A DNA stretch of 64,000 bases from contig JACPUW010000018.1 of the NCBI GenBank assembly GCA_016192035.1, forward strand, positions 1 through 64,000, written 5' to 3'. Under the pieces are notes generated by a model. The model searched no databases and was not told the DNA's origin. It saw only the letters and a program-made list of their open reading frames with translations. Below, one piece after another: positions 1-24,321 of the stretch. Within the stretch, counting starts at the first letter, position 1; each line of letters opens with the position of its first letter. Source of the DNA: Bacteroidota bacterium. Its GTDB lineage: Bacteria; Bacteroidota; Bacteroidia; CAILMK01; JACPUW01. The position numbers and the translations under genes were made by a program.

Positions 1-250
1 ACGTAACCACCTACTTTTGACATCACTTTTTGCGCTTACGAGGCTTCATCATTGGTTCACTTTCGTTCAGCTCATTGCATTTGCACCTACAGAAATTCTA
101 ATTTCCGTTTTTCCTTATCGCTCACCACAATGCAGTTTCCTTGCAATGCGGCATAAGGTGGTTTAATAACTATTCCTGAAAATCGTTATTGAGAGGCCTA
201 CTCTCATCTGTTTTAAAGCATCAGCGGCCTAAGGCCGCTATTCAAGTCAC
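1..250. other. Unresolved AT-rich left flank of the cassette array
   Basis: No intact gene is seen. On the minus strand two short open stretches lie in different frames. One reads IVIKPPYAALQGNC and ends KLEFL-stop. The other ends in a basic tail, MMKPRKRKK-stop, near position 44. They could be pieces of one frameshifted gene, perhaps an old cassette gene or a transposase tail. I cannot assign a family, and chance open frames are possible. The stretch lies on the distal side of the first attC-like element, where the next cassette of the array would be expected. Confidence 0.3.
223..239. repeat. Short perfect palindrome (8-bp arms)
   Basis: AGCGGCCT-A-AGGCCGCT has two perfect 8-bp arms around one base. 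It sits just outside the leftmost attC-like element, in otherwise AT-rich sequence. Its role is unknown. It could be a hairpin or terminator remnant, or a protein-binding site. Confidence 0.5.
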
Positions 251-379
251 ACACGTTTTGCAGCTACCCGAAGGTGGCGATTTCGAAGCACTTCACTGTC
301 AACCAAGCAAAAACTTTGATAGAAGCACAAAGCTTGATTTAACCACTGAACCGCCACTTTTGGGTAGGTGCTGTTATGC
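251..379 (-). repeat. attC-like element 1
   Basis: An imperfect palindrome of about 128 bp. The left arm (TTTTGCAGCTACCCGAAGGT) pairs with the right arm (CCACTTTTGGGTAGGTGCTG). The right end is GTTATGCAC. Read on the minus strand this gives GTGCATAAC directly behind the stop of the gene at 389-1030, as an R''-type core. The left core is degenerate: CACACG replaces the TAACG seen in the others. It is about 96% identical to the element at 3127-3264, with roughly five differences by eye. Confidence 0.8.
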
Positions 380-388
380 ACAGTAGTT

Positions 389-1030
389 CTATATACCATA
401 ATTGTCACAAAGTTTTCTAAGAAGTCCTTTTCTATCTGTCTCTGCTTGTTCAAATTCTTTTTCGTCAACGCCTATTTTGTAATTGTCAAACATATAGAAA
501 TAACTACAACAATGATAACAATCAAGCTTTTGAATATTGCTTAGTCCCTTCTCAAGAATTGCAATTGTATTTTCTATCCCTTTTTTCTTCACTGTCAATT
601 GGTAAAACCTTTTGTCAATTGGATAATGCCATTTCTCAAAAGATATCAGTCCTGGTGACAAGCAATTTATTGCACTATCAAGTTCTCCAATAAATTCATA
701 CGCAAAAGAATACTTCAAGAGTTTGTCAAGCTTATATTCCCAATAGTCATTTGCATCTGAATAAATATTTTCTCTTTGTTTTTCATTAAATGTCCCACGA
801 AAACTTAATGCTATACGATAATATTTTTCTGCTTCAATGCTATCTCCGATGTTTAACTTATTTTCAGCTATTTTCCAATTCTTATCAAAATATGTCTGGT
901 TGGGTTGAAATGGATTTAAAAATAAAATACGGTCTTGCCCCGATTTTATATAAGTGAATTTCGCAAAGTAAAATATCGTCAGTCCAACTATCAGAATAAT
1001 TGTCAAGGTTATCTTGGCGATGGCTTTCAT
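389..1030 (-). CDS. Membrane-anchored hypothetical protein (cassette gene)
   Basis: Encodes 213 aa of no family I recognise. The start at 1030 (MKAIAKITLT) is chosen because the longer frame runs into the attC-like element, and because this start gives a clean N-terminal hydrophobic helix (about residues 5-25) before a soluble domain. That layout suggests a membrane anchor or uncleaved signal. The soluble part is helical in appearance, with possible TPR-like stretches (AEKYYRIALSF; ENTIAILEKGL), so a protein-protein interaction role is conceivable but not shown. A CYHCCSY cysteine cluster lies near residue 180. The gene is AT-rich and fills cassette 255-1044, with its start about 10 bp from one element and its stop about 10 bp from the next. 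The same tight packing is seen for every gene in this array. Confidence 0.75.
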   Translation of the reverse strand: MKAIAKITLTIILIVGLTIFYFAKFTYIKSGQDRILFLNPFQPNQTYFDKNWKIAENKLNIGDSIEAEKYYRIALSFRGTFNEKQRENIYSDANDYWEYKLDKLLKYSFAYEFIGELDSAINCLSPGLISFEKWHYPIDKRFYQLTVKKKGIENTIAILEKGLSNIQKLDCYHCCSYFYMFDNYKIGVDEKEFEQAETDRKGLLRKLCDNYGI

Positions 1031-1038
1031 ACTATTGT

Positions 1039-1171
1039 GCATAACGTTTTCGGGCTTTGCGTTCGGGCGGGTTTCGGAGCACAAAACTGTCTGCCAGCAC
1101 TACACTTGAATAGAAGCACAAAACTCCAAGTTTGCACGTCACCCCGCCTGACGCAAAACCCGTGTTAGCGG
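1039..1171 (-). repeat. attC-like element 2
   Basis: Begins ATAACGTT and ends GTGTTAGCGG. The inner arms CGGGCTTTGCG and CGCAAAACCCG, and GGCGGGT and ACCCCGCC, are inverted repeats with unpaired bases, as in attC hairpins. The middle holds the shared motifs GGAGCACAAAACTGTC and TAGAAGCACAAA. The left core TTATGCAC is complementary to the end of the cassette at 255-1044. The right core GTTAGCGGT matches the far end of the next cassette. Confidence 0.85.
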
Positions 1172-1189
1172 TTCGCCCTTCTTGTTTCG

Positions 1190-2071
1190 TCATATGATTT
1201 TGTTTACATCAATGTCATACCCTGCCGCTTTTAATTCTTTAGCCAAACTAATTTTCCAATACTCTGAACTGTCTATTTCTAAGTATAATAGTCCGTAAAG
1301 GTCACTTGGTAATTCAACGCCTTTTGTATAAAGTGGGCAAACTTTATTTCTTCCTAATTTCCCTATAAAATATCCGAGTTCAAGTATCACATTTTGTCTT
1401 GCTCGTGGATTTAAATTTTCATCTTTCTTTGCCTTTCCAAGGTCGTCATCTGTAAGCAATATGATTGCAAAACCTACATTTGAATGTTCTTCAAATTTTT
1501 CAATGATTGTTTTTCCAGAATTTGCTTGTTCGTGTAGAATTATTGGATTTAAGCCAAGTTTTTCCAATGTCCTTGCAATATTTATTTTTACTTCATTATT
1601 GTGTCCGTGAACAATAAACACATTATTGTTGCTTATATCTTCTGAACTCGTTGTCGAATTTGAAACAACTTTGTCAGGAACTTCGGATTTAATAAGCTCA
1701 ACTTTTGCAACAAGCTGTTTCAAGTTGTTTATTTTGTTTTGAACCTTGTCTTTAAACTCTTTCAGTTCGTCTCTTTGTCTGTTGCCACCAACTACCAACC
1801 CGAAGAATTGGTTAACTCTATCATAGTCAGTTTTATATTCGTTGTATTCGTTATTAAATGATTGTTTAAGAAGTTCCGAATTATAGTCGTCCCAGTCATA
1901 ATAATTTTGTTTTGCTTCTTCAAGCTGGGGTCTTGTCTGAATTTGTCTATTTAAAATTTCTTCTGCTATTTGAATTCTATTAGCTAGAACGTCTTTAAAA
2001 TAGTCCTTTCCAACAACTAAAAGTGTCGGTTGTTTTAATGGTTCTGTCTGTTTTGGTTTTCTTGTTGCCAT
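1190..2071 (-). CDS. TIR-like (predicted nucleotide-binding, PF10137-type) protein
   Basis: Encodes 293 aa. Residues 1-135 are charged and helical, probably a coiled-coil or sensing region. The C-terminal domain (about 149-285) matches the TIR-like predicted nucleotide-binding family: NNVFIVHGHN opens the Rossmann-like fold, followed by FAIILLTDDD and RARQNVILELGYFIGKLG. E231 in the VILELGYF motif is the likely catalytic glutamate. Characterised TIR relatives degrade NAD+ or sense nucleotide signals in anti-phage systems such as CBASS and Thoeris. No cyclase or ThsB-like partner lies next to it, so a stand-alone or differently triggered effector is inferred. The gene is the sole content of cassette 1045-2102. 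Its AT-rich composition suggests acquisition. Confidence 0.85.
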   Translation of the reverse strand: MATRKPKQTEPLKQPTLLVVGKDYFKDVLANRIQIAEEILNRQIQTRPQLEEAKQNYYDWDDYNSELLKQSFNNEYNEYKTDYDRVNQFFGLVVGGNRQRDELKEFKDKVQNKINNLKQLVAKVELIKSEVPDKVVSNSTTSSEDISNNNVFIVHGHNNEVKINIARTLEKLGLNPIILHEQANSGKTIIEKFEEHSNVGFAIILLTDDDLGKAKKDENLNPRARQNVILELGYFIGKLGRNKVCPLYTKGVELPSDLYGLLYLEIDSSEYWKISLAKELKAAGYDIDVNKII

Positions 2072-2093
2072 ATCTATTCTGTCTTTTTAGGGT

Positions 2094-2231
2094 GACCGCT
2101 AACGGTTTGGCGCTTGGCGCAGTGGCGGAATTCGGAGCACAAAACTGTCTATACACCACAAAAATTGATGCGAGGTAGAATGTTCAATTAACCACTTCAC
2201 CCGCCATTGAGCCAAACGCCTGTTAGCAACC
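2094..2231 (-). repeat. attC-like element 3
   Basis: Begins GCTAACGG and ends GCCTGTTAGCAACC. Arms GTTTGGCGCTTGGCG and CATTGAGCCAAACGCC, plus AGTGGCGG and CCGCCA, can pair. The middle contains GGAGCACAAAACTGTC, shared with element 2. The left core TTAGCGGT belongs to the cassette on its left. The right core GTTAGCAACC belongs to the cassette on its right. Confidence 0.85.
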
Positions 2232-2238
2232 GTAATTC

Positions 2239-3081
2239 TTAGTGTTTCGAAGTGTCTTGTCCTTTGCTGTATTTGATGTAAAATTTATCAGCCGAAACAT
2301 TCTTAAAATATTTTGTCATTGTCATACTTTTTTGTCCGCAATACTCATCATATTTTGATTCAAACATTTCGCTTTCTGGATAATTTGAAATTTCTGTTAC
2401 ATAAAATTCATTCTCAAATTTTATAAGGTTATCAGTCTGCCCTATGGTATAAGCAATTCTATTGCTGAAAACAAGAGGACTCTGTTCTTTTGAGAATGTC
2501 TTAGATTTAATCTGCTTTTTAGTTGGGTATTTAAATAAATCGCAATCTCTGAAAAATGAATCATTGATACTATATTCAGAAATAATCTTTGAAGTCTTTG
2601 ATGGAATACATACAATTTTTTCTTCATTGTAGGAAACTGAAAAACCTGAAGATGTCATTAACCCTACTGTATTAGTTGCTGAAATTCTATTCGTTTGAAT
2701 TAAATCCAAGTAATTTAATCCTGTTACTGATTTTGTTGCAGTTGTCCCACGAGAAGTATTTGCTCCTGAACTTGTCGAATTTGTAAAAACTCTATTTCTA
2801 TAGTAATTGTAAGAAACTCCGTTTAGAATAAAAAAACTTTCTTCCAAATTCAAGTAAATATTTTTGTCAGTTTTGTTAAAAAATTGGAACCCAATATTTC
2901 CACCTTCACCCCATAGGTTGTATGAAACCTTACAGTTTTCATCTTCATAAACTAAAAGGTTGTCCTTAACAACTAATTTGTCGGAAGGTGCTGTTTTATA
3001 AACTTGAAAATAAGATGTCGATACGCAAGATGTCAACATCATTGCAATTAATGCGGGTAAAAGGATTTTTTTGGTTTTCAT
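2239..3081 (-). CDS. Hypothetical lipoprotein (cassette gene)
   Basis: Encodes 280 aa with a lipoprotein signal: MKTKKILLP, a hydrophobic core, then MLTSC as lipobox with C19 as the lipidated residue. The mature part is rich in Ser, Asn, Tyr and Lys and reads as beta-rich. It has a low-complexity stretch NSTSSGANTSRGTT near residues 100-112. I recognise no family. It would sit in the inner or outer membrane facing the periplasm, or on the surface. It is the only gene of cassette 2103-3136, and its stop lies 10 bp from the attC-like element. Confidence 0.8.
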   Translation of the reverse strand: MKTKKILLPALIAMMLTSCVSTSYFQVYKTAPSDKLVVKDNLLVYEDENCKVSYNLWGEGGNIGFQFFNKTDKNIYLNLEESFFILNGVSYNYYRNRVFTNSTSSGANTSRGTTATKSVTGLNYLDLIQTNRISATNTVGLMTSSGFSVSYNEEKIVCIPSKTSKIISEYSINDSFFRDCDLFKYPTKKQIKSKTFSKEQSPLVFSNRIAYTIGQTDNLIKFENEFYVTEISNYPESEMFESKYDEYCGQKSMTMTKYFKNVSADKFYIKYSKGQDTSKH

Positions 3082-3126
3082 TGTTGATTTTATTTAAGTT
3101 AATAATGATGTGTTTCAGTTTTATTA

Positions 3127-3264
3127 TGGTTGCTAACGTTTTGCAGCTACCCGAAGGTGGCGATTTAGAAGCACTTCACTGTCAACCAAGCACAAACTTT
3201 GATAGAAGCACAGGGCTTGATTTAACCACTGAACCGCCACTTTTGGGTAGGTGTTGTTATGGGC
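3127..3264 (-). repeat. attC-like element 4
   Basis: Begins GGTTGCTAACGTTTTGCAG and ends GGTGTTGTTATGGGC. It has the same arm sequences as element 1 and differs from it at about five positions. Unlike element 1 it keeps the TAACG core. The left core (TTAGCAACC on the minus strand) matches the end of cassette 2103-3136. The right core (GTTATGGGC) matches the far end of cassette 3137-5060. Confidence 0.85.
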
Positions 3265-3274
3265 TGGGCATCGG

Positions 3275-4207
3275 TTATTCAATCAACTTAACGTCTTTGG
3301 CGATTTGCTCCCCCTTGTCATTTTTGGTTATACTAAATGATACTTTGTCACCGACTTCTAAGTCATTGAAATCTGTATCAATTAGGCTTGTAAAATGAAA
3401 AAATAGATTATTTGGAGGGTATTTAATGAAACCAAAACCTCCTTTGAGAGTTAAAATCTCGCTTGAATTGATTTTCTCAGTAGTTGAATCTGTTTTTACT
3501 TGTGATGTTCCTTCAGGTTTCTTAAAAACACGGTCTTTATTTTGTGGGACGAATAGGTTGTTAATCAATGGTTCGTTTTTTCTAACTCTGTTATCTATAA
3601 CTTCATGCATTGCAACTGGATAGGTCACTTCTTCTAATAAATCTTGGGAAGTTCTTGTTACCATTTCCTTACCATAGTTGTTTGTGTATTCAAAATCCCA
3701 GCTCAGCACCATGACTCTAGTGCCAAGAGTGTTTAGTTTTCGGATTAGAGGAACATAATCCCCATCTGATGCAATAAGAACAAGAACATTAAATCGTTTG
3801 TAGAATGCGAGTTCAAATGCTTCCAAAGCTAGCCAAACATCTATACCTTTTTCGTGCCTTACTCCGCTTTGGGAAGTTTTTACTGGCAAATAGTGAGTTG
3901 TTACACCTTCTGAGCTAAGAATATCATCAAACATTCTATCGTAGAAAAGTGAATTTCCTTGTTGAGATGCCTCTTGAGCATTTAATCTGCCTCTGAAATA
4001 ATGTGCATCTACTATTTGGCAAAGTCTCTCATCAGTGCCTTCTTGTTGAGCTACTTGGTTTCTTATAAAATGATGTAAACCAGAAATACTTATTCTGCTT
4101 TTTCTTTCATGGAAGTAGTTGTAAAAGTTACTCACATGAAGAAAGTAGTTTCCATCATAGAATACTCCGATTCTAGTAAGGCTTAGGTCTTTGTTGTTTG
4201 CGGTCAT
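3275..4207 (-). CDS. NYN-domain ribonuclease with C-terminal cold-shock domain
   Basis: Encodes 310 aa. The N-terminal NYN (PIN-like) domain spans about residues 12-190. Acidic residues expected to bind metal appear in GVFYDGNYF (D18), KGIDVWLALEA and LIASDGDYVPL. A linker leads to a cold-shock-type OB fold in the last 65 residues, with its two RNA-binding strands visible as GGFGFIKY and LFFHF. The protein is therefore best read as a metal-dependent RNase brought to single-stranded RNA by the OB fold. It is transcribed just downstream of another NYN gene (8 bp between 4213 and 4207 ends, same strand), and the two share cassette 3137-5060. Pairing of two NYN nucleases with different RNA-binding modules suggests joint action on RNA. 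The target is unknown. Confidence 0.85.
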   Translation of the reverse strand: MTANNKDLSLTRIGVFYDGNYFLHVSNFYNYFHERKSRISISGLHHFIRNQVAQQEGTDERLCQIVDAHYFRGRLNAQEASQQGNSLFYDRMFDDILSSEGVTTHYLPVKTSQSGVRHEKGIDVWLALEAFELAFYKRFNVLVLIASDGDYVPLIRKLNTLGTRVMVLSWDFEYTNNYGKEMVTRTSQDLLEEVTYPVAMHEVIDNRVRKNEPLINNLFVPQNKDRVFKKPEGTSQVKTDSTTEKINSSEILTLKGGFGFIKYPPNNLFFHFTSLIDTDFNDLEVGDKVSFSITKNDKGEQIAKDVKLIE

Positions 4208-4212
4208 CTTTA

Positions 4213-5004
4213 TTATTTTATTTTTACGAATACATGTTTAATGTTGGCTTTTCCAGTAACTCTTTCATCAACTTCAATTGATGATATGCTTTTAACCAAT
4301 GGCACCAATTTAGTAAACCCATAGTTCCTAGAATCAAAATTAGATTTTTTCTTCAGAAGTAAATTCCCTACTTCAGCAAGCGAAGCCCAACCACTTTCAT
4401 CTGCTAAGTCTGTTATAGTATTTGTCAAAAGTTTAATTGCTTCTTCATCAATTTTGCTCACATTGGAGTTAGATGGAGTCGAAATTGTTTGCTTATTCTC
4501 TTTAGTTTTATTCGATTTTGAGGTAGGTGCCACAACTAGACCATCTCCAATTGTGCTAAGGACTTCGATATAAATAAACTTGTTACACGCAGATACGAAA
4601 GGGTTGGGCGTTTGCTTTTTCCCTAAACCAAATACTTTCATTCCTGCTTCTCTAAGTCTTGAGGCAAGTCTAGTAAAGTCACTATCACTGGAAACGAGGA
4701 AAAATCCCTCAACACGTCCGGTGTATAAAATATCCATTGCATCTATTATCATGGCCGAATCCGTTGCGTTCTTTCCAGTGGTATAAGCATACTGTTGTAT
4801 CGGGATGATGGAATTATCTAATAGGACTTTCTTCCAATGGTCTAGATTTGGCTTTGTCCAATCACCATAAATTCTTTTATAGGTAGGAGTGCCATATTTG
4901 GCTATTTCTTCAAGCATTTCACGAATATTGGCACTTGGGACATTGTCAGCATCGATTAAGACTGCTAATTTAATGTCGATGCTTGTTTCAATTGAAGTAT
5001 TCAT
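4213..5004 (-). CDS. NYN-domain ribonuclease with LOTUS/OST-HTH-like C-terminus
   Basis: Encodes 263 aa. The NYN domain covers about residues 10-150: LAVLIDADNVP carries D18 and D20, ATDSAMIIDAMDIL and FFLVSSDSDFTRLASRL complete the acidic site, followed by the typical GMKVFGLG strand. A Ser/Thr/Lys-rich linker leads to a winged-helix-like C-terminus (about 185-263, with DESGWASLAEVGNLLLKK and DSRNYGFTKLVPLV) that fits the OST-HTH/LOTUS family, an RNA-binding domain often fused to NYN in bacteria. It is the first gene of its cassette. The companion gene at 3275-4207 follows directly. The RNase role is family knowledge; the partnership is inferred. Confidence 0.85.
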   Translation of the reverse strand: MNTSIETSIDIKLAVLIDADNVPSANIREMLEEIAKYGTPTYKRIYGDWTKPNLDHWKKVLLDNSIIPIQQYAYTTGKNATDSAMIIDAMDILYTGRVEGFFLVSSDSDFTRLASRLREAGMKVFGLGKKQTPNPFVSACNKFIYIEVLSTIGDGLVVAPTSKSNKTKENKQTISTPSNSNVSKIDEEAIKLLTNTITDLADESGWASLAEVGNLLLKKKSNFDSRNYGFTKLVPLVKSISSIEVDERVTGKANIKHVFVKIK

Positions 5005-5052
5005 AGTAATGATTAATTGGTTATCTCAGTTAATTGTTGTCGTTTTTGCCTT

Positions 5053-5188
5053 GCCCATAACGTTCGGCCGCTTTGCGAAGGCGGGGATTTTCAGCACTAA
5101 ACTTCATTAAATGCACAAAGCTTGGATTTAGCACTTCTCTGTCATAGAAGGACGAAACCCCCGCTTTTGCAAAACGGCTGTTGGCGGT
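5053..5188 (-). repeat. attC-like element 5
   Basis: Begins CCCATAACGTTCGGCCGCTTTGCG and ends ACGGCTGTTGGCGGTTCG. Arms CGGCCGCTTTGCGAAGGCGG and CCGCTTTTGCAAAACGGCTG pair with bulges. The interior has CAGCAC and TGCACAAAGC, echoing the GCACAAA motif of the other elements. The left core TTATGGGC matches the end of cassette 3137-5060. The right core GTTGGCGGT matches the start of cassette 5061-8256. Confidence 0.85.
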
Positions 5189-5201
5189 TCGTTGTTCTTT
5201 G

Positions 5202-7127
5202 TCAGTCGAATTTAAGTTGTCCATTGTCAATTAGTTCTGCATACATTGTTGCACCTTTTTTAGTTATTTTTATTCTGTCTTGCAATTGACTATTTATAAG
5301 GTTTTCAACGTCTCCATTTGTCTTGAAGCTTTTGGAAAGGCTTTTTAAGTCAGCAAGTTTCAATTTCTTTTTCAACTCTACTTGTTCAAGAATTTGACTA
5401 CCTAAAACTGAAATTGTTGGTGTGTATTTTTCAGTTGGCTCATTTACAGTATTTGATTCGATTGATGAAGCCTTTAAATCTTCTTCAATTTGTTCCTTTT
5501 TTTCTTGCTCGGTCTTGCTTTGGGAGCTTTCAAATTCTATATGTCTTTCCGTTTTATTTTTTTGATATTCTCCAATTGTTTCAGAGTATGCGGAAATTAA
5601 TGTCTTAACATTTGATTTGTCTTCGGTAATAGATTCTGTTAAGGTCTTTGGGAGAATTGCTGCCCCATAAATGCTACCCCAAAGAGTGTAGTAAATTAAT
5701 GAGTGTTGAATTTCTTCTCTTTCATTGTTTTCAATGAACCTTAAGAAATCCCTACCTGATGTAAACAGAACAGCTATAGATTTTAAAACTTCGTTTGAAG
5801 TTCTTGAAATGTCAAAACCGCCCCTTAGGCTGTCAAATGATTTTAGTAATTCAACAAGATATTCCCGCTCTTTAGAACCGTCAAAATTGTCAATTGTGTC
5901 TTTAAAGTGTTTGGCAAGGTCAATGAGAATAGTTTTTCGATTAGTGAAAAAAGTTTCAAGGTCAGGGATGTTGTCAGTTTCAATGAAGAATTTCAAGCAT
6001 TGAAGCAAATATTTCTTTTCATTTTCTAAAAGACCTTCTGGAATAAATAGTTCCATTTTGTCATTTACAAAATGGGGTCTTACAAGTGACTCAAATGTTA
6101 GCTTGTTGGTTTTTCTTGATAGATTAATTTCATCTTCAATTTTATTTCTAACATCTGAAAATGCATTGTTGACTCTTTCAATATAGTTACTTGGATACTT
6201 TGAATTGAACTTTGAATTAATTGCTCTTTTTAGTTTTTCTAGCTTTAGTGAAAGTGGAAGTTCTGCCTTTGATGTTATAAGTAAACCTTCAATAAGAAGA
6301 TTAAATGCAGATATGCCAAATACTTTAGATTGTTTTAGGGTGTTTAGTAACTCAGATGTGAATGAAGAATTAGAACCTAACATTATAGCTTCTTCTAATT
6401 TTTCAACTGTTTCATAAGTCTTGAGTATTTTGTCAATTATTTCTAAAACCTGCTTTTTTTCAAATTCATTATTGTCCGAAACCTTGTTTAGAAACAATGA
6501 AAGGTTGTTATTCAAAAACCTTAGCAGAATTGAAATTTCTTGCCATTCTTTTGTCGTTAAATTTGTATAAGCAATTGAACTACCTAGAATAGCACCAAGT
6601 ATTCTGTTTAGTTTTCTTTCCTTATAGAAAGTCAAGGAATTGAAATTGTTATTAACGGTTGGAAATACTATTAATGGTATTTCATTGACGTAGCAATCTA
6701 CTTTTATAACTTCAGAATTTTGTTTCGCCAAAGCAGAATACTTTGTTTCTATACTCTTTAATGACTTAGCAAAGGTTTCATTGAGTTCTTTCTCTCTCCT
6801 GAACAATAATTTGAAGTTGTTAAACAGAAATACAGTATTATCAATTATTACATAATTGAGTCCATTTTCTGTAGTTTGCCATTTGCTTTCGGTTTTTTCA
6901 ATTTCAATTTCAATTAAGACTGGAAAGCCATAGTCCTTGTCAAGTTCTCGGTTGTGGAATATGGGTTTTTCATAGCCAACCAAAAAGTCTTCACATTCAT
7001 TTAAAAAGGTCGTTGTTGCCCTTTTGAAACTGTATTTTCTATTAGGATAAAAGGAACAGGGCGAAATTGATAGTGTTGTAAAAACACTATTGAAGTCGTT
7101 TGAATTGAACGGAATATATACTCTCAT
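5202..7127 (-). CDS. Large hypothetical protein paired with an SF1 helicase (cassette gene)
   Basis: Encodes 641 aa. I recognise no domain and see no signal peptide or membrane helix. The first 110 residues look like a mixed alpha/beta fold, the middle (about 110-520) is helical, and a charged linker near 540-580 (ERHIEFESSQSKTEQEKKEQ) leads to a C-terminal piece resembling a winged helix (KSLSKSFKTNGDVENLINS). It is downstream of the helicase gene, 12 bp apart on the same strand, in the same cassette (5061-8256). The pair is therefore probably one functional unit. Helicases coupled to an unknown large partner are common in phage-defence modules, but no direct evidence of that role is present here. 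Confidence 0.75.
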   Translation of the reverse strand: MRVYIPFNSNDFNSVFTTLSISPCSFYPNRKYSFKRATTTFLNECEDFLVGYEKPIFHNRELDKDYGFPVLIEIEIEKTESKWQTTENGLNYVIIDNTVFLFNNFKLLFRREKELNETFAKSLKSIETKYSALAKQNSEVIKVDCYVNEIPLIVFPTVNNNFNSLTFYKERKLNRILGAILGSSIAYTNLTTKEWQEISILLRFLNNNLSLFLNKVSDNNEFEKKQVLEIIDKILKTYETVEKLEEAIMLGSNSSFTSELLNTLKQSKVFGISAFNLLIEGLLITSKAELPLSLKLEKLKRAINSKFNSKYPSNYIERVNNAFSDVRNKIEDEINLSRKTNKLTFESLVRPHFVNDKMELFIPEGLLENEKKYLLQCLKFFIETDNIPDLETFFTNRKTILIDLAKHFKDTIDNFDGSKEREYLVELLKSFDSLRGGFDISRTSNEVLKSIAVLFTSGRDFLRFIENNEREEIQHSLIYYTLWGSIYGAAILPKTLTESITEDKSNVKTLISAYSETIGEYQKNKTERHIEFESSQSKTEQEKKEQIEEDLKASSIESNTVNEPTEKYTPTISVLGSQILEQVELKKKLKLADLKSLSKSFKTNGDVENLINSQLQDRIKITKKGATMYAELIDNGQLKFD

Positions 7128-7139
7128 TTTGTCATTTCT

Positions 7140-8195
7140 TTAGAAGGGTAAATCGCTGCTTGCAGATGATTTGTTTTTTTCGTTGTGATACTCAAACAAG
7201 TTTCTGTCAATGTTTGCAATGAAAGTAGAAAGGTGGTTTGAATACAGGATGAATAAATCTCTATAGCTCCTTGTTAAAGCTACATAAAGAGGATTTCTAT
7301 CTTTCTCGTCACCGGAAATACACATAGGAATGAAAACTGCTTCAAATTGCAACCCTTTTGCACTATGGTATGTCATTAGCTTTGGGTTGTCTGTTTTAAA
7401 GTCCAAATCCATAGAACCTGCACCATATCCAATCTTAGCTTCAACTCCCCATTTTTTACTGTCGAAATATTTTTTTGCGGTTTGAACATCATTGTTGGTC
7501 GGAAATAAAATGCCAACGTCTGTATAATTTTGAGCTTTAACTACATCAATTATGTAATCAAGTTGGTCATTGAACGTGGAGCACTCTACAAGACGTGGTT
7601 TATTTACTCCTTCTTTGTTACACCTGTCAACAAGTGGGTCGTTAGATAAACTTACTTTTTCTGCAACTCTAGCAACTTTCTTTGGTAGTCTATGGTTAAT
7701 AACCAAATTCTCCATAGGGATTCCAGTTTGAATTTGGATTTCTTCCATTGTCAATAGTTTCCCCTTATTAGGCACATTTTTGTATAACTGTTGTGCAGAG
7801 TCCCCAAATAAAATAAAATGCTTTTTGGCTGCTTGTTGCAATTCTCTTAATTCATCAGTATCGAAGTCTTGAACTTCGTCAACGATGATATATTCTGCCG
7901 ATGGTTTGTCTCGTCTGTTTATCCATTCCCAATGATAAAGAACCTTTGATTCGTCAACCCCAATGGTGTGAATACCATCTTCAATGAATTGTTTTAGTGC
8001 TTTAGTAAAGACGATAATTAGGTAGTCATTATTCCCTTGCTCAGCAAGTTCTTTTGCTCTCCATAGTGCTAGAACGGTTTTTCCACTTCCTGCACACCCT
8101 TTAACAATGAATGAACTGTTTAGATTTCGTCTTACGATTCTTACTTGATAGTCGTCAAGTTCTGATTCGTTTATATACCAAGATTCTTTTGCCAT
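7140..8195 (-). CDS. UvrD/Rep-like superfamily 1 helicase-type ATPase
   Basis: Encodes 351 aa, short for a full UvrD (about 700 aa). It keeps the core motor motifs: a Q motif (LDDYQ, Q17), Walker A GCAGSGKT (33-40), Walker B with the DEVQDF signature (about 100-108), LFGDSAQQLY (motif III region), motif V-like MTYHSAKGLQFEAV and motif VI LYVALTRSYRDLFILYS. The 1B and 2B insertion domains are missing or minimal, so processive unwinding is doubtful. It may translocate on DNA or RNA, or act as a switch for its neighbour. It is the first gene of the array-proximal cassette and is followed at 12 bp by the 641-aa gene. Confidence 0.85.
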   Translation of the reverse strand: MAKESWYINESELDDYQVRIVRRNLNSSFIVKGCAGSGKTVLALWRAKELAEQGNNDYLIIVFTKALKQFIEDGIHTIGVDESKVLYHWEWINRRDKPSAEYIIVDEVQDFDTDELRELQQAAKKHFILFGDSAQQLYKNVPNKGKLLTMEEIQIQTGIPMENLVINHRLPKKVARVAEKVSLSNDPLVDRCNKEGVNKPRLVECSTFNDQLDYIIDVVKAQNYTDVGILFPTNNDVQTAKKYFDSKKWGVEAKIGYGAGSMDLDFKTDNPKLMTYHSAKGLQFEAVFIPMCISGDEKDRNPLYVALTRSYRDLFILYSNHLSTFIANIDRNLFEYHNEKNKSSASSDLPF

Positions 8196-8244
8196 ATTTT
8201 TTTCAATTAATGTCTGTTTTTGTCTGTGTAGAGTGTCTTTTTAC

Positions 8245-8300
8245 AATGACCGCCAACATCCGTATATACGCCACTCCACTTGAGCTATTGCGTATATATT
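8245..8300 (-). other. attI-like half site at the proximal end of the cassette array
   Basis: The sequence GACCGCCAACATCCG gives, on the minus strand, G followed by TTGGCGGT. This matches the core at the far end of the first cassette (element 5). Unlike the five inner elements it has no paired attC arm on its right. Instead it is followed by the perfect palindrome CGTATATACG (8261-8270) and a second copy of CGTATATA (8291-8298), which could be recombinase-binding repeats. All cassette genes read away from this point. It is therefore the expected place of an attI site; the assignment is inferred from position and core sequence. Confidence 0.55.
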
Positions 8301-8579
8301 GACTATGTGCGAGGTTTGAGACAGCCATACGCAGGTGCCGCTGCATCATCAAAACAATCCAAAGGACTCTGCTTTGTTTTGATGTGGATGGCCTTACCCA
8401 GGTGCGTACTTGAGTGGTCTTACTGAGCTCAAATCCCAAAGCCGATGGAATTCGGCGCGTATCGGCAATAAAACCACGCATGGCTCGGTGCCTGAGCAAG
8501 AGCCGCCTAAAGCCCAGCAAGCCAGATACATGAAATGTAAGTAAAGCGCTTAACATAGAGCAAAATTTTATTGACTTGA

Positions 8580-8587
8580 CAAATGTA
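8580..8587 (-). promoter_or_regulatory. Candidate promoter -7 box reading toward the cassette array
   Basis: On the minus strand TACATTTG matches the Bacteroidota TAnnTTTG box. A good TTTG partner about 20 bp upstream is not evident. Transcription from here would cross about 300 bp of untranslated leader and then the first cassette, as an integron Pc promoter would. The whole 8301-8781 stretch has no gene I can support on either strand, and in particular no tyrosine recombinase. Confidence 0.35.
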
Positions 8588-8781
8588 GGCCATAGTTTGG
8601 TATTTGATACACCCATTGAAAAAAAAAAGTCAAAAAAAATTAAGATACCCCACCTTTTTAGGTCTTTCTTGGGCTATCCTGCCAGGTATTTTGGCTTTGG
8701 CTGCCCAAATTGGTGCCCAAAACGGGGTGCGGGCATCATATCCGGGCAAACCGTTCATCCTCCCAATAACCCATTGGCTAC

Positions 8782-9291
8782 CTACTCTTTGGCAAAGGGC
8801 AGGGTATAGGCACCGTAGGTGTCAACCACGCGGACAAAGTATAGCCCGTGGGGCAGTTTTGATATGTCTATCTGCATGTTGCGACCGCGCACAGTGCCAA
8901 AGTCACGCACCAGGACGCCGCTGGGGCCCAATAAAAGTACCTGTCGGGTGCCGGCTTGTTGAAAAGCTAAGGTGAGCTGTGACCGCGCGGGGTTGGGGTA
9001 GAGCGATGGGCGGGCTTATGACTTGTCGGTCTGCGGATTGGAAGGGGAGCCAAGGGGTGGCAGCGAACTGCCGTCCGCCGTTTCCGCGCAGGCATACACC
9101 GTGTCAAGGTCGAGCCCGTATATATCTATGGTGCCCTGCAGCACATCGAGTTCGGACTGGGTGTGGCAGCTTATGTAGTCCAGTTCCACTTCGTCTTGTG
9201 TGGCTACCCAGGCTTGCACCCCGTTGAGCACGTTGATGGCCGTGGGCTGTGGCTTAAACAGCCTAATTTTTAAGGTGGATTGTGTTTCCAT
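8782..9291 (-). pseudogene. T9SS cargo gene fragment interrupted by an in-frame stop
   Basis: The minus strand reads 91 codons from ATG at 9291 to a TAA at 9016-9018. The same frame then continues without a break for 77 more residues to TAG at 8782-8784. The downstream part is a clear type A T9SS sorting domain: SLYPNPARSQL at its start, an ILSL/LPHGLYFVRV-type core and a short basic end. The upstream part (VQAWVATQDEVELDYISC) looks protein-like but belongs to no family I know. One base change would restore a 169-aa reading frame, but it has no signal peptide, so this is probably a decayed remnant of a larger exported protein. Readthrough or an assembly error are alternatives. Confidence 0.7.
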
Positions 9292-9297
9292 GTGTCA

Positions 9298-10075
9298 TAG
9301 GGTCGTGTGAGGGAATGTCGTTTTAAAGTAGTGGGGGGCCGAGTCGCTTAAACGTGTGTAAATGTTCTTAACCGTTAAGAACGACTGTGGGCAACCGCTT
9401 GTTGACAACACCTTTGCGGTACCAATAATTCTTATAATAGCGAAATGACTATACAAAATAACGGTACCCCTACACCCCTAAACCCCTAAAACCCCAGAGA
9501 ACCCTAGCACCCGTGCCCCGCTGCGCCCGTGTGTTTTCTTAAATCCTTTGCGCTCTTTGCGTCCTTGTCCCCCAACTACCCCGCCCATCCTTTTGCCTGA
9601 ACCTTGGCAGCAATCACATGATGGGGGCCCAGGCAAGCGGCCGTTCGCTGCGCCTCGCTATTGATCGGGCGTTTCCACCTGCATGGACACCCCCATTTCT
9701 ACTTGGCTCCAATTTGTCTAAAATGTTGCTTATCAATATCTTAATCCCCTTTATTCATACCAAAAAATAGGCTTCGCCAGGTCAGTCCCATTTTCCCCCT
9801 TTGGCAGGGTGTACTTTAGGCTAACTTAATAGGAAGGCCAAATGTAGCCAAAATTTCACTAGTGCCGCCTTTGGCACTATATTTTTTGATAGCCAACTCC
9901 ATTCACTTGATTATATGAAACTTATGCTCAAGTTCCGGGGCGTTTTCGGTTGACGTGTGCTTTACCACCGCTTCCGGTACATTTCAAGTCCCCCACGCTA
10001 TTGGATTCCATTTCCAAACAAGACCCTCTGGCCCCCATCATGTGTGGGCCAATGCCTTGATGCCTACCCGCCTAC
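9298..10075. other. Non-coding stretch with a 19-bp palindrome
   Basis: No gene is seen in this 780-bp gap on either strand. It holds the GTTCTTAAC-C-GTTAAGAAC palindrome, a C-rich stretch with repeated ACCCCTAAACCCC-like words near 9470-9500, and otherwise unstructured sequence. It separates the decayed T9SS gene from atpC. Confidence 0.5.
9364..9382. repeat. Perfect 9-bp-arm palindrome
   Basis: GTTCTTAAC-C-GTTAAGAAC is an exact inverted repeat with a single central base, about 70 bp upstream of the broken T9SS gene. The symmetry fits a dimeric regulator or recombinase-binding site better than a terminator, as there is no T run. Its function is unknown. Confidence 0.5.
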
Positions 10076-22849: not shown

Positions 22850-22980
22850 TCGATTAGTGCCCATGGCCCCATGTTCTTTTTTTGTTAAGAAAATTCCTCG
22901 CTTACCTCCCACGCCTCATACCCCTATGGCCAGGCCAATGTCCATGCAATAGCCCCATCAATCAACCATCCCCCCTAAAC

Positions 22981-23104
22981 ACTTATCACTTATCACTCAT
23001 CACTCATCACTTATCTCTCATCACTCATCACTTATCTCTCATCACTCATCACTCATCACTCATCACTCATCACTCATCACTTATCTCTCATCACTCATCA
23101 CTCA
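22981..23104. repeat. Tandem heptamer repeat (ATCACTC and variants)
   Basis: About 17 copies of a 7-bp unit, ATCACTC, with variants ATCTCTC and ACTTATC arranged in a higher-order pattern. The block runs into the stop codon of the cotH gene: on the minus strand the units read TGATGAG, so the reading frame ends in a string of TGA codons. This looks like slippage-driven expansion. The remainder of 22850-22980 holds nothing recognisable. Confidence 0.85.
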
Positions 23105-24321
23105 ATCCTAAAACTGGGCCTGTATGCATGCCAACTCCTGATTTGATCGGCCACAAACGGCCAAATGCCCGGTATTTCAAGTCCCATACCCCCATGCATG
23201 GGTCGCCTAAGCGAGCCGCGAAGCCCTTCCAATCCAAAAAAAGATACCGTGTCGGTCCTCACATACGGCCTTATCAACCGCATGTGCCTGCGCGACATTT
23301 GCTTAAAATCCCTATTGCCCAGATAGTCCGCTATTTCGTCGCAGGCATCGCGGTACATCTCGCGGTACTGTGGCAGCCTGCATATGGCAGCTATCAAGGG
23401 GTTGCCCACGTTAAACACGTTCGGCATGCGCCACACCGCCGAATCCTGCCCATAGCCAAAAGACTGGTTATAGTCCCAAGGTATCCAGTGCAATTGTCCA
23501 TCGGCAGTCTGGTATAGATAGTAGTTGTGGCACTGCCCCCAGGCCATGCCGTCGGCATTGGCCAGAAACATGTCAACCGCCAGGCAGCTTACCAACTCCT
23601 GCACATTCACCCACATGCCAAGGCTATCGGCCAGGTCGCGGTTGCTGCCCTGCTGCAGCAGCCTAATCAGGGATTGCAGGTTACCCCAGCCCTTTTTGGC
23701 CTCCTTATTCTTGGCTACCACTTTGTTGTGCTTCAAATCCCCCGGCTCAAAACAAAACCCATTTCCCTCATACAGTGCACCACCATCCTCCCCAAAATGG
23801 TGCAGCAAAAAAGGCTTTTCTATAGGTTCTACCACCACATACAGGCCCAAATACCTGCCATCAAGGTACACTGCCGCCCAGCCCGTGCGCGGCGCTGACA
23901 CCCCCAAGTGGCGCAGCAGGTCAAACGAGAGCACCTCCCGCTGAAAGGAAGGGTCCTCAAAGGCGTTGCCAAGGGTAAACTCCGCCACCCCTTCATACGT
24001 CTGTGGGGCAAACGCATTGATCTTTATCCTAAGCGGCGTCTTGCCCGACCAGGCAAAACTATTGGACAATTCCCCCTTTTCCCTTATGCCTATACTGTCA
24101 AAAAACTGCCCATTGATCATAGCATATACCTTGTGGTACTGCTTGTTGCCCTGCTTATAGTCGCGCTTCATATGGGCAGGCAGGTAGGGGTTGGTTGAAA
24201 AAATCCGCACCTCGTTCACCTTCAGGTGCTGGTACAGATATTCAGCATAGGGGCTCGCCTGCACATGGGTAGCAGCCAGCAAACTGATTATGGCCCATCC
24301 CGCCCAGCTACGCCCCCACAT
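23098..24321 (-). CDS. CotH-family secreted protein kinase-like protein
   Basis: Encodes 407 aa with a signal peptide (WAGWAIISLLAATHVQASPY). The CotH domain fills the protein: NEVRIFSTNPYLPAHMKRDY at the start, GIREKGELSNSFAWSGKTPLRIKINAF, a kinase-like lobe with YLGLYVVVEPIEKPFLL, SCLAVDMFLANADGMAWGQCHNYYLY and LHWIPWDYNQSFG carrying an aspartate of the active region. CotH of Bacillus is an atypical kinase of spore coat; in Gram-negatives the substrate is unknown. The 3' end runs into the heptamer repeat. The start overlaps the end of the aminotransferase gene by 14 bp. Confidence 0.88.
   Translation of the reverse strand: MWGRSWAGWAIISLLAATHVQASPYAEYLYQHLKVNEVRIFSTNPYLPAHMKRDYKQGNKQYHKVYAMINGQFFDSIGIREKGELSNSFAWSGKTPLRIKINAFAPQTYEGVAEFTLGNAFEDPSFQREVLSFDLLRHLGVSAPRTGWAAVYLDGRYLGLYVVVEPIEKPFLLHHFGEDGGALYEGNGFCFEPGDLKHNKVVAKNKEAKKGWGNLQSLIRLLQQGSNRDLADSLGMWVNVQELVSCLAVDMFLANADGMAWGQCHNYYLYQTADGQLHWIPWDYNQSFGYGQDSAVWRMPNVFNVGNPLIAAICRLPQYREMYRDACDEIADYLGNRDFKQMSRRHMRLIRPYVRTDTVSFFGLEGLRGSLRRPMHGGMGLEIPGIWPFVADQIRSWHAYRPSFRIE

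Follow-up and report, generated by a model that had tools for sequence, protein, structure and literature searches.

An integron-type cassette array in a Bacteroidota genome, of a kind that in relatives lies beside a tyrosine recombinase without the IntI additional domain

Surveys have found integrons to be nearly absent from Bacteroidetes, recovering at first integrases without cassettes and then the integron of Salinibacter ruber, which remained the sole complete integron in Bacteroidetes proper in the IntegronFinder 2 analysis (PMC9024848). Reviews list Bacteroidota among the integron phyla without detail (PMC8618304, PMC9668308). Earlier surveys selected integrases by their additional domain (PMC2426708), and in the work of Smyshlyaev et al. 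2021 the integron integrases belong to an integron-like subgroup of tyrosine recombinases that does not conserve the IntI insertion throughout (PMC8138268). The same authors call this insertion essential for integron function, whereas in the system described here cassette arrays accompany enzymes that do not have it. The Salinibacter ruber integron was found by standard IntI and attC models, in contrast to the present system, which fails both TIGR02249 and the canonical attC boxes. A search of published journal papers, mostly open-access ones, returned no description of this Bacteroidota system.

When compared with Vibrio-type sedentary integrons and their VCR attC sites, the Bacteroidota system is alike in its co-oriented cassettes, attC hairpins of about 125 nt, G^TT crossover, attI near a tyrosine recombinase gene and cassette numbers in the tens, the cultured strain Flavobacterium enshiense DK69 having 78 attC-like sites or more. 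It differs in having no IntI additional domain, in an integrase gene that is usually co-oriented with the array and upstream of it, and in an attC core of YAACA/CGTTR instead of RYYYAAC/GTTRRRY; unlike Vibrio-type integrons, it was found in Bacteroidota alone among the genomes tested. In the Treponema chromosomal integron the integrase also reads in the cassette direction, but it is a canonical IntI, unlike the enzyme of the Bacteroidota system.

The window analyzed here is a stretch of 64,000 nt (positions 1 to 64,000 of contig JACPUW010000018.1) from the Bacteroidota bacterium assembly GCA_016192035.1. On its minus strand, between 252 and 8257, seven co-oriented genes are arranged in five units, each closed by an imperfect palindrome of about 124 nt (Table 1). 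A preliminary description of this DNA had reported seven AT-rich, same-strand genes in five units, and this is confirmed by the minus-strand open reading frames and by a G+C content of 34% in the array versus 52% at 10000-64000 of the window. It had also reported five palindromic elements of about 130 bp that start near AAC, end near GTT and share GCACAAA; the cores proved to be 124 nt long, the motif is on the plus strand in all five, and on the gene strand the elements read 5'-AACA...CGTT-3', with the exception of the last one (252-375), which has GTG for GTT. The R'' of that site is complementary to the tail of the element before it, and its R' box is interrupted by a group II intron, of which the contig, ending inside it, includes the 5' part. 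The intron has the orientation of the cassettes, matches Rfam RF01999 (group-II-D1D4-2) at 85-205 with 98 bits (E 1e-19) and begins with GTGTG as read by inspection; a search of 60 genomes gave no DNA relatives of it. Group II intron insertion next to attC sites has been reported elsewhere (PMC7923331). Far outside the array, at 22942-23123, the window carries a run of about 150 bp made up of heptamer-like units in tandem, CATCACT and variants of it.

Table 1. Features of the cassette array in the window and the eleven attI-like copies of the same genome (G000; C, contig)
Feature	Position	Strand	Remarks
attI-like insertion site, array head	8257..8311	-	GTATATACGGATGTT; predicted crossover G^TT, G at 8257
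Relic of integrase gene 3' part	8312..8823 (approximate limits)	-	upstream of attI
Cassette 1 gene a, UvrD/SF1-like helicase, 351 aa	7140..8195	-	Pfam UvrD_C, Viral_helicase1
Cassette 1 gene b, 641-aa protein	5202..7127	-	no Pfam or PADLOC match
attC-like site, cassette 1	5059..5182	-	137 bits to R1; fold computed
Cassette 2 gene a, NYN + OST-HTH/LOTUS	4213..5004	-	Pfam NYN 2.9e-38, OST-HTH 2.2e-16
Cassette 2 gene b, NYN + cold-shock domain	3275..4207	-	Pfam NYN 2.4e-16, CSD 2.7e-11
attC-like site, cassette 2	3135..3258	-	156 bits to R1; 96% identical to 252-375 site
Cassette 3, lipoprotein-like protein	2239..3081	-	ORF; no Pfam/PADLOC family
attC-like site, cassette 3	2101..2224	-	141 bits to R1
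Cassette 4, CAP12/Pycsar-type TIR effector-like protein	1190..2071	-	Pfam PF10137 9.4e-39; PADLOC PDC-S35 1.5e-84
attC-like site, cassette 4	1043..1166	-	129 bits to R1
Cassette 5, 217-231-aa protein, N-terminal hydrophobic segment	389..1084	-	ORF
attC-like site, cassette 5	252..375	-	150 bits to R1; R' box interrupted (GTG for GTT)
Palindromic element cores	252-375, 1043-1166, 2101-2224, 3135-3258, 5059-5182	-	124 nt each
Group II intron 5' part	1..251	-	in R' box of last attC; contig ends inside intron
attI-like copies, own genome	C7:51159, C8:8285, C9:11901, C13:111 and 49950, C17:14904		
attI-like copies, own genome, rest	C18:69631, C19:77021, C31:113139, C35:8055, C38:81522		

On sequence evidence, we read the window genes, with a probability of about 0.9, as a sedentary cassette array belonging to an integron-type system that is special to Bacteroidota and moved by a dedicated integrase. 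In the mechanism we propose, a tyrosine recombinase of XerA/IntI-like type, dedicated to the system and about 350-400 aa long, would recognize the folded bottom strand of attC-like hairpins of about 125 nt (AACA...CGTT), would excise or insert single cassettes, each a gene with its own attC, by crossover at G^TT, and would place them at an attI some 40-140 bp from its own gene. The system would thus very probably work like an integron.

If the crossover lies at G^TT, a cassette carries the R'' of its own attC together with the tail of the preceding R' box, and since both then come from one cassette, complementarity is expected across the cassette and not within the element. We compared the six bases following GTT in each upstream element with the six preceding AAC in the next one downstream, and found all six to be complementary in 43 of 52 cassettes from the window's own genome and its relatives. 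When the two ends of a single element were compared, this was so in 1 of 70, and for random pairs in 3% (0 of 20000 permutations comparable). A second sample gave perfect complementarity in 53 of 58 cassettes of F. enshiense DK69 and in 9 of 11 from other genomes, versus 3 of 82 within elements, with a chance level of 3-4% over both samples. All five window cassettes pass, the complementary pairs being GTTGGCGGT/ACCGCCAAC, GTTATGGGC/GCCCATAAC, GTTAGCAACC/GGTTGCTAAC, GTTAGCGGT/ACCGCTAAC and GTTATGCACA/TGTGCATAAC, where the first joins the attI-like site to the R'' of the first attC. By this signature the elements are identified as borders of an integron-type cassette array, and not as a repeat family.

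The elements were examined with a covariance model of their own and, as suggested in the preliminary description, by folding them as single strands. The model R1, built from the window elements, has 15 matches in the own genome and also matches 50 of 60 relatives of the class (maximum 47 sites per genome; best 1e-37 in other genomes), 31 of which have at least five attC-like sites. The attI region (E6) was part of its training and makes it noisier; matches were therefore checked by the cassette test. None of 14 non-Bacteroidota genomes was matched by R1, five of them carrying classical IntI, while all six Bacteroidota genomes in the same search were. The occurrence of the elements is far beyond chance, and the system is widespread in Bacteroidota. 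Across 73 elements the arms covary, with 88.7% of cells paired and a covariation of 0.616, which drops to 0.18 on shuffling and does not exceed 0.11 on sliding. In the single-stranded DNA folds, stability was higher for the bottom strand than for the top strand in 14 of 15 loci or genomes (p 0.0003), and we infer that the bottom strand is the substrate. AACA is present in 147 of 147 usable sites and CGTT in 145 of 147; a search of Rfam gave no attC match. The F. enshiense DK69 sites are spread over contigs 28, 29, 30, 32, 40 and 41, which make up a very large split array. Site length varies widely, with one short attC-like site of about 50 nt (AACAGCGTATAA...TTATACGCAAACCGTT) near the array head of another locus (L068, ~9700-9780).

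The cassette complementarity rule also predicts the insertion site of the first cassette. In the window this sixth site (8257-8311) differs in sequence from the five elements. Among relatives, the predicted attI adjoins a tyrosine recombinase gene at the array head in about 17 loci, mostly at a distance of 37-140 bp, and a TATA-containing motif before GTT is common to the predicted sites. The recombinase gene is usually upstream of the array and co-oriented with it, with a divergent arrangement in two loci (L071 and L074). This placement is consistent with an integrase that would catalyze the cassette recombination.

To what extent this enzyme resembles IntI bears on whether a Bacteroidota host has acquired a classical integron, that is, an IntI with the additional domain together with canonical attC sites. 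The cassette logic, the attI by the integrase and the G^TT crossover are the same, and a structure model of the Algoriphagus integrase (pLDDT 82.8, pTM 0.54), in which some 70-90 residues form an additional domain at the N-terminus, has its best PDB fold match in the Vibrio integron integrase 2A3V, followed by XerA. However, the array integrases score 181-217 bits with the integron-integrase family model TIGR02249, for which the cut-off is 265 and four true IntI controls scored 471-489, and their match to the profile splits around 180-238. From the catalytic Arg (GLR..E) to H.LRH they have 91-92 residues versus 133 in six true IntI taken as relatives; the IntI-specific additional domain of about 41 residues near patch III is absent. 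No true IntI over the cut-off was found in the 60 relatives, only 7 of 147 sites fit the classical GTTRRRY and 5 of 147 RYYYAAC (AAC and GTT alone being common), and R1 matches nothing in the genomes with canonical integrons. Acquisition of a classical integron is therefore very improbable. By the defining features tested the system is not a classical integron, and we call it a distinct integron lineage. The preliminary reading of an integron with VCR-like sites thus holds for the mechanism, by the cassette test, but fails for classical IntI/attC membership, given the missing additional domain and the different core consensus. Within NCBIfam the integrases come closest to NF040815, which carries the description site-specific tyrosine recombinase/integron integrase. 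More tentatively, and at somewhat less than even odds, the system may be a second kind of integron in Bacteroidota, derived from a Xer-like recombinase independently of IntI and capturing folded attC sites without the additional domain. A quick tree separates IntI from the Bacteroidota integrases, but AU tests do not reject the grouping of both. If true, an independent origin would mean that evolution arrived separately at the same cassette-capture mechanism. Two tandem relatives of the array integrase were also seen on a contig labelled Candidatus Undinarchaeales archaeon (L104), through transfer or misbinning.

In the window's own 2.98-Mb assembly, no intact dedicated integrase was found, although one could be missing as the arrays lie at contig ends. 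The genome contains 11 copies of the attI-like site preceded by related sequence, of which the better preserved are decayed integrase 3' ends; the clearest, on contig 31, is an integrase C-terminus that still reads YIQTALGHTSSKTTEVYTRVTSINNKTLRSPLDSL. Behind the copies on contigs 17 and 19, no closing attC was found within the DNA stretches searched. Taken alone, the window relic gave nothing significant by tblastn and no significant protein profile match (E 0.55), and it was recognized because of its nucleotide similarity to the other attI-flanking copies (68-82% identity over 145-570 nt). Since all integrase copies detected in this genome are relics, movement of the window array has probably ceased, and the array is probably frozen or stranded, barring an integrase hidden in a gap of the assembly. 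Within the Bacteroidota system it has CALIN status, being likewise without an intact integrase, and differs from described CALIN by the retained attI, the integrase relic and another attC consensus. The preliminary reading is thus upheld for the array, but the integrase here is decayed, with intact versions in relatives. Near two of the attI copies, window 9579-9859 and positions 2668-2948 of locus L006 are 89% identical, apparently another dispersed repeat.

In the own genome, no intact tyrosine recombinases of this type were found other than XerC/D, and XerD-type enzymes are related. Both observations would suit cassettes moved by housekeeping XerC/XerD in the manner of pdif modules, with the neighboring integrase irrelevant. 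We give this little credence: the predicted insertion site adjoins a dedicated integrase in some 17 loci, relics of such an integrase flank the attI copies of the own genome, and the borders are AACA...CGTT hairpins of about 124 nt instead of 28-bp dif-like XerC/XerD sites.

Against movement by a dedicated integrase, the reading we prefer, speak the missing domain, which is regarded as essential to IntI activity, the failure to find an intact integrase in the own genome, and some element-rich genomes (for example G018) that show only Xer-type recombinases. In its favor are duplicated and shared cassettes. In one locus (L064), a 1.1-kb cassette is present twice at 99.4% identity, the identity ending at CGTT on its edges, and cassettes are common to different families at 75-83% identity. 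In genome G040 a homologue of the window TIR gene makes up a separate cassette of 0.9 kb, and in genome G293 another homologue comes after an identical cassette start, GTTAGGCACAATTAT. Every one of the 43 cassette ORFs detected has the orientation of its array. The preliminary description had looked to cargo exchange as support, which these duplicated and cross-family cassettes with edges at G^TT provide, and to singly dispersed elements as a refutation. Some single elements do occur, but several of them close single cassettes with their own attI copy and are therefore not dispersed repeats of that sort. Such single elements are what speaks for non-mobile palindromes (REP/BIME-like or terminators) that separate co-directional genes by chance, the least credible explanation of all and one refuted by the cassette test, as the complementarity joins cassette ends and not element ends, duplicated and shared cassettes are edged at G^TT, and an integrase and attI stand at the array head.

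Among the cargo genes, the cassette 1 helicase is matched by the PADLOC NERD+UvrD and GajB-type models, the family PDC-S35 matched by the TIR protein is a PADLOC candidate defence family, and contig 31 cargo includes a Fic-like protein; the proteins of cassettes 3 and 5 gave no recognized family. Homologues of the NYN-LOTUS protein are mostly not beside R1 elements. Judging by family membership, the TIR, NYN, helicase and Fic proteins may serve in defence, and a cargo with candidate anti-phage genes fits integrons as stores of defence genes.

With a capture enzyme that lacks a domain thought to be essential, the Bacteroidota system is expected to be missed by standard integron searches. If the enzymes act as we infer, gene capture on a large scale in a major phylum would have gone unnoticed, since the enzyme responsible does not pass the test by which integrons are defined, and it would become directly testable whether attC recombination needs the additional domain, as has been claimed.
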